From Bacillota bacterium (GTDB lineage Bacteria; Bacillota; Clostridia; Christensenellales; QAND01): 64,000 bases of DNA. Both the position numbers and the translations under genes were made by a program. Under the pieces are notes generated by a model. It saw only the letters and a list, made by a program, of their open reading frames with translations. It ran no database searches and was not told where the DNA came from. Below are positions 9,590 to 57,530 of the stretch, in pieces (position 1 is the stretch's first letter; each line of letters starts with the position of its first letter). Where the stretch lies: assembly GCA_003150225.1 (NCBI GenBank), contig QAND01000005.1:33928-97927 (forward strand), in the 5' to 3' direction.

Positions 9590-9763
9590 GAGCAGGACAG
9601 AGGTGCGGTTTGCATCAGTAGCAGCGGCCAGGGCGCGGAGCCCGCTAACGCGCTGTGAAAGGGTAAACTGCCGAAGGGAGCGGGTCTGCCGCGGACGGTT
9701 CCCTGGCTGGTTGGATGAACAATCTCCCGGCTGTCACCCTCGGGTGGAGCGCTGACTGCCCTC
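9590..9763 (+). promoter_or_regulatory. Lysine riboswitch (L box) aptamer
   Basis: The leader contains the L-box blocks in the right order: AGAGGTGCGG (9600-9609), AGTAG (9618-9622), GTGAAAGGG, CTGCCGAAGGGAGC (9668-9682), GGCTGTC (9729-9735) and GGTGGAGCGCTGACTGCC (9743-9760). Binding of L-lysine to this aptamer favours a downstream terminator. It precedes asd-dapA-dapB, the aspartate-to-lysine/diaminopimelate branch, exactly the expected context. Confidence 0.93.
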
Positions 9764-30386: not shown

Positions 30387-30968
30387 ATGGCACAGAAATA
30401 CACCATACCCGCTTGCTGCGGACGGGCAATCGACGTACTCATGGGACAAACCATAACTGTAATCGATCTTGAGGGAGGACAGGTTGTAGATTTCTTTGCG
30501 GAGTCCGCGGAAAATCCAGAGGAGTTTCTATCCCCCGGCGTTACCATCGACTGCAACGAATCCCTGCGCATATCCGTTGGGAACCATCTCTATTCCAATC
30601 TTTACCGCCCCATGTTTCAAGTGCTTCAAGATGAGGTTGGTGAGCACGACCTTTTACATCCATGCTGCCGGCCGGAAATGTACGATTTTTTCTACCACAA
30701 CGGCGCAGGACATCCCAACTGTCTGGAAAACATCAATGGCTGCCTAGGAAGGGCAAGGCCGATCATCCATCCCATCAATCTCTTTATGTATACGGAGATC
30801 CAGCCAGATGGCAGCATCTGCGTCAAACGCCCCCTCTCCAAACCGGGCGATCGGATCGTTTTCAAAGCGGAGATGGATCTGCGGATCGGCGCCGCGGCCT
30901 GCAGCGTCTCGGAAAGCGACTGCAACAGCGGGAGCTGCACGCCCATAAAAATCCTGATTACGGACTAA
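30387..30968 (+). CDS. DUF1989 (urea carboxylase-associated family) protein
   Basis: 193 aa. The double-stranded beta-helix family DUF1989 is recognised by GGQVVDFFAESAENPEEFLSPG, the LYSNLYRPMFQVLQD block and the C-terminal CSVSESDCNSGSCTPIKI, which holds Cys residues seen in the group. Members associate with urea carboxylase or amino-acid use in other bacteria. No urea genes are here, so the job is unknown. Ends just before a terminator. Confidence 0.85.
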   Translation: MAQKYTIPACCGRAIDVLMGQTITVIDLEGGQVVDFFAESAENPEEFLSPGVTIDCNESLRISVGNHLYSNLYRPMFQVLQDEVGEHDLLHPCCRPEMYDFFYHNGAGHPNCLENINGCLGRARPIIHPINLFMYTEIQPDGSICVKRPLSKPGDRIVFKAEMDLRIGAAACSVSESDCNSGSCTPIKILITD

Positions 30969-32509: not shown

Positions 32510-32538
32510 CTAAATTATATTTGGGAGTGTACGCTGTG

Positions 32539-33405
32539 ATGAAAAAGTTGAGGTTCACCGCTCTGTGCGCAGCCGGCATGATGCTGGCCGCCCTCACCGC
32601 CGGATGTGGCGGAGACAATCCCGCCGATACCAGCGCGAAGACCTATGTGGTGCTGGAGGATTCCCTGGACGCCGAACAATACGGCATCGGCTTCCGCAAT
32701 GAGGATATCGCTCTGGGACTGGAGGTACAAAAGCATCTGGATGAGATGATCCAGGACGGCACCGCCGCCGAGATCAGCAACAAATGGTTTGGCGAGGATA
32801 TCCTTCTGAAGGATCAGGCCTATCTGGAGGAATCCACTGCCCCCAGCGGAGACGATTCCCTGACCAAAATCCAGAACAAGGGCAAGCTGGTTCTGGGCTT
32901 GGACGACAGCTTCCCGCCCATGGGCTTCCGGGATGAGAGCGACACCATCGTCGGCTTTGATATCGACCTTGCCACCGAAGTTGCCAAGCGCATGGGGGTT
33001 ACCCTTGAGGTGCAGCCCATCGATTGGGACGCCAAGGAGATGGAACTCAGCACCGGCCGCATCGACTGCATCTGGAACGGAATGTCCATCGATGACGACC
33101 GGCTAGCCGCCATGTTCTTCGCCAAGCCCTATGTGGCCAACCGCCAGATCGTCATCGTGCCCAGCGATTCCGATATCAAAACCGTGGCTGACCTTGCCGG
33201 CAAAAAAGTTGGCCTGCAGAAGGGTTCCACCGCCCTTTCTGCCCTCAAGAAAAACGCCGTCTTTGAGCAGGTGGCCGAGGTTGTGGAGCTGGCCGACAAC
33301 GTCACGGTCTTTATGGATCTGAAAGCCGGACGGGTGGACGCCTTTGTGGTGGACGAGGTGGTAGGACGGTATATCATCTCCACCGACCAGGGAGAACAGG
33401 AATAA
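32539..33405 (+). CDS. Amino-acid ABC binding lipoprotein, circularly permuted
   Basis: 288 aa. Lipoprotein signal MKKLRFTALCAAGMMLAALTAGCGG (lipid Cys23). In ordinary type II binding proteins the segment YVVLEDSLDAEQYGIGFR...WFGED is the C-terminal end. Here it comes first, about residues 35-95, followed by the linker AYLEESTAPSGDDS. The normal N-terminal half then starts at about 107 (LTKIQNKGKLVLGLDDSFPPMGF) and runs to VVDEVVGRYIIS at the very end. Each element occurs once, so the domain is complete but permuted. It binds a polar amino acid for the permease and ATPase genes that follow. Start ATG behind GGGAG; the operon hairpin follows its stop. Confidence 0.88.
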   Translation: MKKLRFTALCAAGMMLAALTAGCGGDNPADTSAKTYVVLEDSLDAEQYGIGFRNEDIALGLEVQKHLDEMIQDGTAAEISNKWFGEDILLKDQAYLEESTAPSGDDSLTKIQNKGKLVLGLDDSFPPMGFRDESDTIVGFDIDLATEVAKRMGVTLEVQPIDWDAKEMELSTGRIDCIWNGMSIDDDRLAAMFFAKPYVANRQIVIVPSDSDIKTVADLAGKKVGLQKGSTALSALKKNAVFEQVAEVVELADNVTVFMDLKAGRVDAFVVDEVVGRYIISTDQGEQE

Positions 33406-33497: not shown

Positions 33498-34154
33498 ATG
33501 AGCGCCCAATACCTGTTACAGCTGAGCGCCTCCCTGGCAGGGGGACTAAAATACACCATCGGGCTGTTTTTCATCACCATTCTATTGTCCATGCCTTTGG
33601 GGCTAGCACTGACCTTTCTACGGATTGGCAAAAGCCGTGTGCTGAAGGCCATCACCGGAGGGTATGTATGGATCATGCGAGGCACCCCTCTTTTGCTACA
33701 GTTATTTTTCTTCTGCTATGGCATTACCGCCATTCCGGGCATCGGCCCCTACTTGGTGATGGACCGGTTTACATCGGCCTGCGTGGCCTTTGTTCTCAAC
33801 TACGCCGCCTATTTCTGTGAAATCTTCCGAGGCGGCATTCTATCGGTGGACAAGGGCCAATATGAAGCCGCAAAGGTGCTGGGCTTTTCCCGCTGGAAGA
33901 CGACACGGCTCATCGTGTTGCCCCAGATGCTCAAGGTATCCCTGCCCTCCATCAGCAACGAGTGCATCACCCTTGTGAAGGATACCGCCCTCATCACCGC
34001 CATCGGCATCACGGAGGTTTTGTACTTTGCCAAGAGCGCCGTAAACCGGGACGTCAACGCCCTGGCATATCTGGTGGCCGCGGGCTTTTATTTGATCATG
34101 ACCTACGGTCTAACGGTGCTGTTCCGCCGCTTGGAGCGGAAATACAACTATTAG
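33498..34154 (+). CDS. Polar amino-acid ABC transporter permease
   Basis: 218 aa with five to six membrane segments. HisM/GlnP family features: N-terminal [35 protein letters not shown] and the EAA loop [20 protein letters not shown], the contact for the ATPase. Start behind AAAGGAG. With one permease gene a homodimer is expected. Confidence 0.94.
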
Positions 34155-34165
34155 GAGGCGCCCCT

Positions 34166-34909
34166 ATGGAGATGATCCGTGTAACCCAGCTTGGAAAATC
34201 GTTTGGCTCGGAAGCGGTGCTGCGGGACGTCAGCTTTACGGTGGAAAAGGGGGAAACCGTGGCCATTATCGGAGCGTCGGGTGCGGGTAAAAGTACCATG
34301 CTTCGATGCCTCATCGGCCTGGAGCGAGCCGACAGCGGCTCCATCCTGGTGGAGGGCGAGGCCATTTTGCGGGACGGCAGCTATCAGGATGAAAAGACCT
34401 GCCGCCGTATCTGCGGCAAGATGGGCATGGTGTTCCAGAGTTTCAACTTATTTCCCCATATCTCGGTGCTGGATAACCTCATCTACGCACCGGTTCATGT
34501 GCGCAAGGAGAGCAGGGCCTCCGCGGTGGAGCGCGCCATGGAGCACCTTCGGATGGTAGGCCTTGTGGGCAAAGAAGCCGCCTATCCCGGCCAGCTTTCC
34601 GGAGGGCAGAAACAGCGGGTAGCCATCGCCCGGGCCATGATGATGGATCCCGATATGCTGCTGTTCGACGAGCCCACCTCCTCCCTGGATCCGCAACTCA
34701 CCGCAGAGGTTTTAGCCGTCATGCGGGACCTGGCCGCCCGGCGCATGACCATGGTGGTGGTCACCCATGAAATGGGATTTGCCCGGGAAGCCGCGGACAA
34801 AGTGCTGTTCATGGGGGATGGCTGCATCATCGAAGAAGGGCGGCCGGAGGAGCTTTTCGGCAATCCCAAAGATAACCGGGTAAAGGAATTCATCCACAGC
34901 ATTCTATAA
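34166..34909 (+). CDS. Polar amino-acid ABC transporter ATP-binding protein
   Basis: 247 aa. Walker [10 protein letters not shown] (about 34-42), Q-loop [11 protein letters not shown], signature [14 protein letters not shown], Walker [15 protein letters not shown] and the H-loop VVTHEM. Belongs to the GlnQ/HisP group. The start MEMIRV follows AGGAGGCGCCCCT; the spacing to the permease is 11 bases. Operon order is binding protein, permease, ATPase. Confidence 0.95.
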
Positions 34910-57373: not shown

Positions 57374-57530
57374 GAAAACTGCGCCGATCTTTCTTTTCAA
57401 ACACGGAAGGCGGCGCCGTTTCCGGCGCAACCCATTGGCAGCGGACCATAGCCCATCGGGCGGTAGGCGTCGCTTGCTTGAAAAATCGCGGTATGATTCG
57501 TATGGTTCACTGGGTCAGGTTGGAATCATA
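57374..57530 (-). promoter_or_regulatory. Structured leader of the metal-chelate ABC operon, candidate riboswitch
   Basis: On the minus strand after the DUF1847 gene: 8-base arms TATGATTC/GAATCATA (57492-57530), GCCC-GAT-GGGC, and GCGCCG-GAAA-CGGCGC with a GNRA loop (57415-57430), then the terminator at 57340-57373. Ligand class not recognised. Layout suggests a regulatory aptamer followed by an expression platform. Confidence 0.45.

Follow-up and report, generated by a model that had tools for sequence, protein, structure and literature searches.

Evidence for natural circular permutation in a family-3 solute-binding lipoprotein of Clostridia

How an ATP-binding cassette (ABC) importer comes to have a receptor whose ordinarily last segment is coded ahead of its first is the question raised by the gene at 32539..33405 of a 64,000 nucleotide stretch of Bacillota bacterium DNA (the window; assembly GCA_003150225.1, contig QAND01000005.1, positions 33,928 to 97,927). 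Very probably the product is a functional, lipid-anchored receptor for polar amino acids, a natural circular permutant of the family-3 (PF00497) solute-binding proteins (SBPs), and one of several separate permutations in the Clostridia. The permutation is neither unique nor a single event, and recurs within family 3.

Segment order and predicted fold

The 288 amino acid lipoprotein frame begins with the ATG at 32539, with GGGAG ahead of it at 32523-32527, and the stop ends at 33405. When phmmer is run against the PDB the protein aligns as two stretches whose order is swapped, residues 102-282 with residues 6-189 of 4ohn (independent E-value, i-E, 4e-36) and residues 35-92 with residues 195-252 of the same protein (i-E 9e-6). 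The same pattern with a weaker second stretch is seen with 3hv1 and 4zv1 (i-E 0.002 and 0.0045), and the segment order relative to the PDB rests on these three alignments, to proteins that are themselves of ordinary order. By phmmer and BLAST the window protein lacks the usual lobe I - lobe II - lobe I order, and because its segments are swapped it is taken as a permuted relative and not as an ordinary SBP_bac_3 member. All segments are present, the order is cyclically shifted and the old termini are joined, and so at the level of sequence a clean circular permutation of a family-3 protein is supported. The SBP_bac_3 profile (PF00497) passes its gathering score in two stretches, with 122.4 bits against a cut-off of 26.4. 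With the permuted protein every curated NCBIfam SBP model stays below its cut-off (best 151.4 of 256.35 bits), and none above cut-off names a ligand. The parts of the gene, all on the + strand, are as follows.

32539..32607, + strand: signal peptide and lipobox LTAGC with the lipid-anchored Cys23 (from the sequence)
32641..32814, + strand: residues 35-92, the final strand of lobe II, the second crossing of the hinge and the return into lobe I with KWFGED, the C-terminus in ordinary proteins (phmmer, BLAST order)
32815..32874, + strand: residues 93-112, linker from the old C-terminus to the old N-terminus (linkers compared by eye with ordinary mature N-termini)
32875..33153, + strand: residues 113-205, opening half of lobe I plus the first crossing of the hinge, ordinarily the N-terminus (phmmer, Pfam profile)
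33154..33384, + strand: residues 206-282, lobe II through its last helix (VVDEVVGRYIIST) (phmmer, structure alignment)
33385..33405, + strand: short new C-terminal tail and stop (from the sequence)

Across 32 aligned sequences C23 is conserved in at least 90%, the linker residues D105 and S107 are invariant, and so are the positions predicted to form the ligand pocket. The linker also retains a DDSLxxI stretch that resembles the old N-terminus when permuted linkers are set by eye against the mature N-termini of ordinary loci.

The AlphaFold2 model of the window protein (pLDDT 89.7, pTM 0.80) predicts the two-lobed type II, or Venus-flytrap, fold. VIA-align matches are sequence-ordered and span essentially residues 103-286, and those of Foldseek are of similar length. 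In the alignment row for 1lst, model residue 285 corresponds to residue 177 of the lysine-arginine-ornithine-binding protein (LAO), the second hinge crossing of which we take to lie at about residues 186-194. In the model, then, the new chain ends fall within lobe II, upstream of the last strand of that lobe and shortly before the second hinge crossing, and therefore the anchor would sit on lobe II beside the hinge and not at the crossing.

A preliminary description of this DNA had anticipated much of this, in that the WFGED-ended segment does precede the ordinary start (residues 35-92 before 113-282) and, with every segment found once, the permutation is clean and not a partial duplication. 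The linker that it proposed is also there, although of 20 residues by the present boundaries and not 18. Its placing of the protein end and the anchor at the hinge crossing has to be given up in favour of the lobe II position.

Permuted relatives, operon and cut sites

Among 5.8 billion proteins searched, 7219 matched, and in each of the 120 listed BLAST finds the ordinarily C-terminal segment (C) before the ordinarily N-terminal one (N), the local alignments covering 85-100% of the query; the first listed (P0002) shares 99% identity with the protein of the window. A simple motif order gives C before N in 112 of the 112 proteins with both motifs found, among 121 including that of the window. 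Homologues with the WFG segment N-terminal, a search for which had been suggested from the outset, are numerous. Scanning of 84,980 species genomes, with the best 80 of at least 580 relatives kept, gave 29 permuted and 51 ordinary loci. All 29 permuted loci are titled Bacillota (Oscillospiraceae, Christensenella-like and other Clostridia), and 27 have a complete open frame. Ordinary kin are 52-60% identical over the N segment, and 11 permuted genomes have no strong match besides the permuted gene, the next best having an E-value of 5e-34. Chance and sequencing error are excluded for the permuted order. The early worry that a frameshift, or an error of assembly, had produced the simple permuted form is ruled out by the independent genomes and by an order common to all 120 relatives listed.

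In 26 of the 29 permuted and 48 of the 51 ordinary loci, genes for a permease and an ATPase come after that of the SBP, and in the window the cognate pair lies beside it.

33498..34154, + strand: polar amino acid ABC permease (HEQRo_perm_3TM model above cut-off; order shared by 26 of 29 permuted loci)
34166..34909, + strand: ABC ATPase (EhuA, TcyN and GlnQ are the best curated models, none reaching its cut-off)

For this operon, neither the window nor eight related loci gave a riboswitch at gathering scores. Elsewhere the window holds a lysine riboswitch (9590-9762, + strand, 81.4 bits), a molybdenum/tungsten cofactor riboswitch (57374-57495, - strand, 53.4 bits), a cspA thermoregulator match barely above its gathering score (2217-2683, + strand, 79.1 against 78) and a urea amidolyase associated protein UAAP2-like protein below cut-off (30387-30968, + strand, 92 of 284.7 bits). 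In a Megasphaera metagenome-assembled genome (MAG; locus L051, 4440-5942) two ordinary-order SBP genes lie side by side before one permease and ATPase.

The window's arrangement is one of several. Further permuted single SBPs occur in 200 genomes of the order of the genome of locus L001, and segment profiles resolve three arrangements, with the cut before the last lobe II strand (as in the window), at the first hinge crossing, or inside lobe II. Other family-3 subfamilies show the window's cut plus two further cuts, and the sites observed are within lobe II or on its border. Profile scoring of 202 SBP frames, some genes having been fetched twice (176 rows after merging), gave 107 of ordinary order, 51 of the window order with one more in which a part was missed, and 29 of the first-hinge order; the remainder comprised 7 without one part (by assignment, two of the first-hinge type and five of the inner-lobe type) and 7 otherwise incomplete. 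The AlphaFold model of a first-hinge-cut protein is weaker (pLDDT 77.6, pTM 0.59) and is not used as evidence. In one 537 amino acid frame (L175, 441-977) a first-hinge-cut SBP is followed by an apparent permease domain, and therefore in such a fusion the tether to the transporter would move too.

Frequencies were taken as best matches in samples, with queries of known order, and are not a census. At a threshold of 1e-40, a query holding both orders gave 145 matches in 143 of 291 genomes of the class of L001, which sorted by match span into 105 ordinary, 19 window-type, 15 first-hinge and 6 unclear or partial (G322, G404, G314, G421, G256, G277). A profile check agreed for 29 of the 34 matches of permuted span (L168-L171, L173-L175, L177, L196; L227-L246). 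The control was 120 genomes of the class to which the Megasphaera locus L051 belongs. There the same query matched 55 times, in 40 of the genomes, and by span, the sole criterion used for these rows, none was permuted. Identity to the query is lower in the control (37-44%), although permuted matches at 41-48% did reach the threshold in the class of L001. A further control of two genomes gave no matches at its threshold and is uninformative. Of 29 matches to another query in the order of the Avimonas locus L026, 10 are permuted.

Number of origins and route

For the SBP trees the N and C segments were aligned separately, omitting L006, L027 and L028 as incomplete or interrupted. Here 22 permuted rows group with the window (support 96/96) while five rows and L030 fall among ordinary kin, and a single clade for all 28 permuted rows is rejected (approximately unbiased, AU, test, p 0.00026). 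The permease and ATPase sequences, which are independent of SBP segment order, give the same split with 100/100 support and reject one clade (p-AU 1e-118) in a tree without L016, L021, L022, L028, L039 and L056, where there is no permease and ATPase pair. By eye the junction residues track the two lineages as well. A single origin of the permuted proteins is thus rejected by the AU tests on both data sets; for the second permuted group, the tests of one origin or two give p values of 0.25 and 0.087.

A larger tree of 218 rows (identical rows merged; L126, L133, L117, L120, L141 and one L067 frame left out as long or odd) requires at least 10 changes between ordinary and permuted order, nine of them forced by well-supported branches, and bootstrap trees give 10-12. 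The count is rough, because the bootstrap was still slightly short of convergence and there are long branches that meet, and as the events counted are changes, some may be returns to ordinary order. The window protein lies in a clade of 29 permuted rows. Locus L200 (frame 454-754), of ordinary order, is nested in the second permuted clade (six-row clade, 100/88) and ends in a tail, SIVPDNE, that resembles the permuted linker, and so at least one return is possible. P0238 is, with L200, an ordinary-order SBP that could have come from a permuted one.

To explain each permutation, an ordinary gene would have been duplicated in tandem, its two copies fused in frame and the outer parts then lost. 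That route is probably the right one, fits the linkers, and is a textbook one (PMC3320104). Candidate long forms exist in the protein sets, P0130 being N-C-N-C and P0173 and P0190 being C-N-C, and the 120 proteins listed for the first-hinge query comprise 73 of N2-C-N1, 36 of N2-C-N1-N2-C and 11 of N1-N2-C-N1 form. However, 38 of the 47 long forms are from 'ena' assemblies and several appear chimeric, P0278, P0282 and P0303 having near-identical C-terminal halves on different N-terminal halves; on the other hand, one long form, P0342, represents seven contigs. In the genomes, an N2-C-N1-N2-C protein of that size is absent from the 145 matches in 291 genomes (one whole-length match, G256, lies in a 1000 amino acid frame), the C-N-C form from 29 matches in 245 genomes, and the N-C-N-C form from four genomes. 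The idea of a complete series of evolutionary intermediates was accordingly dropped, the long forms being mostly 'ena', several chimeric-looking, and the tested forms unmet in the genome samples. In the one-and-a-half-length proteins of N2-C-N1-N2-C form, such as P0278, P0282, P0303 and P0343, a single lobe I half would have two possible partners, and these proteins may be real alternative folders or chimeric assemblies.

Known systems, rival explanations and meaning

In the mechanism proposed, the old termini, both on lobe I, would have been joined by the conserved linker of about 20 residues and the chain opened in a lobe II loop, and therefore lobe I would become one contiguous coded block with the lipid anchor on lobe II. 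The Venus-flytrap fold and the ligand pocket would be retained, and the anchored receptor would close on a polar amino acid, dock on the permease and pass its ligand to the neighbouring permease and ATPase as usual. What would be altered is the position of the tether and the continuity of lobe I, and the window gene would be the product of one among several separate permutations in Clostridia.

Ordinary family-3 type II proteins (4ohn, 3hv1, LAO/HisJ, GlnH) are alike in segments, fold, pocket positions and operon and differ in segment order, N-terminus and position of the lipid anchor. The tandem substrate-binding domains of GlnPQ (6h30) form what is presumably a natural N-C-N-C fusion, with which a first-hinge-cut protein aligns in one stretch (query 45-272 to 99-324), but its domains are complete and ordinary, none being permuted.

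No description of a permuted family-3 receptor was found in the literature searched, subscription papers being outside its scope, and so the early statement that none was known holds for family 3, but not for permuted SBPs as such. Glycine betaine-binding and molybdate-binding proteins and CysB are, we presume, of type II fold. A structure comparison reports permutation among glycine betaine-binding proteins (2b4l, 1r9l, 1sw1) and between these and molybdate-binding proteins or CysB, all less than 24% identical (PMC2395249). These share with the present case a permuted SBP with the same pocket position, but remote proteins were compared there, whereas the present receptors belong to a single family, have near relatives of ordinary order and an operon, and arose several times. 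A word search of the OpuA paper (PMC2861598) shows none of the terms for permutation or rearrangement that were looked for. TpMglB-2 (Tp0684) of Treponema pallidum, with Gram-positive gut relatives, is a permuted, lipid-anchored type I receptor of 'Type Ic / Cluster Bc' for which glucose binding was shown, and its authors offer adaptation to anchoring as a possible reason for the permutation (PMC4990184). There the fold is that of type I sugar receptors and one arrangement is reported, compared with an amino acid family, three cut sites and repeated origins here; the strong type II family match of the window sequence speaks against membership of that group. Swaposin and the DNA methyltransferases, permuted by duplication (PMC3320104), resemble this case in linker pieces like both old ends and in candidate intermediates, and differ in that the intermediates here are uncorroborated in genomes. 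The Bacteroidales imelysin-like proteins (PMC3143127) are likewise a sequence-detected natural permutation of a bacterial uptake-related protein, but all-helical and not of the SBP fold.

Several points weigh against a functional permuted receptor with several origins. All 29 permuted loci are labelled MAG, uncultured or Candidatus, and among them the frame of L027 is interrupted and L006 is truncated at a contig start. P0130, P0173 and P0190 come from metagenome sets and are unmet in the genome samples searched. Other kinds of cut site may be missed, because permuted queries found most of the further cases. The structure prediction proposed early on did return a confident model, but the placement of residues 35-92 takes its support from AlphaFold confidence, because the aligners were sequence-ordered and gave no superposition. 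Ligand binding and transport by the permuted protein are putative, and we infer docking, the duplication route and any benefit of permutation.

That fragments of two neighbouring ordinary SBP genes were fused in silico by assembly or annotation is hardly credible: P0278, P0282 and P0303 do look chimeric, but the simple permuted form is carried by every listed relative and by 29 of the 80 loci, 27 of them with complete open frames. It is very unlikely that the protein is a decayed or non-transporting relic or a non-binding sensor, a view to which the failure to reach any curated NCBIfam cut-off (best 151.4 of 256.35 bits) and the interrupted L027 (one of 29) lend something, against which stand the invariant pocket positions, the conserved operon, the complete frames and the 11 permuted genomes without another match better than 5e-34. 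Just as unlikely is that all cases go back to a single ancient permutation, with ordinary order regained later; the nesting of L200 with its linker-like tail agrees with it, but one permuted clade is rejected in two data sets, three cut sites were found, and the solved 4ohn, 3hv1 and 4zv1 are ordinary.

The harder matter is why the permuted receptor should recur. The permutation may be neutral, the old termini both being on lobe I, tandem duplicates easily made and lobe II openings drifting to fixation with uptake unaffected, and to this we give a chance only a little short of even. The conserved operon and pocket positions show no sign of new function and several cut sites are tolerated, as it would expect; it fits less well with permuted spans in 34 of 145 matches in the class of L001 against 0 of 55 in the control (a weak point, the control matches being more distant at 37-44% identity), and with cuts in lobe II or its edge though over half of the chain belongs to lobe I (weak also, as the searches favoured known sites). 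This recurrence in one class but not the control, and the siting of the cuts, hint at selection. We put forward, as a tentative possibility somewhat below probable, that Clostridia family-3 receptors are a permutation hotspot, with at least 10 changes and three cut sites, selected either for placing the lipid anchor and both chain ends on lobe II or for folding of a contiguous lobe I, with occasional returns.

Earlier SBP permutations were known between remote relatives (PMC2395249) or in one sugar-binding group (PMC4990184), and what is new is one amino acid receptor family that seems to have about 10 arrangement changes behind it, with close ordinary kin and the same operon. Annotation of such proteins may suffer, with profile matches split and no curated SBP cut-off reached, whether through permutation or mere distance. 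For the biology of the family, the permuted receptors would serve as replicate natural experiments on how anchor position and lobe continuity bear on folding, anchoring and delivery to ABC importers.
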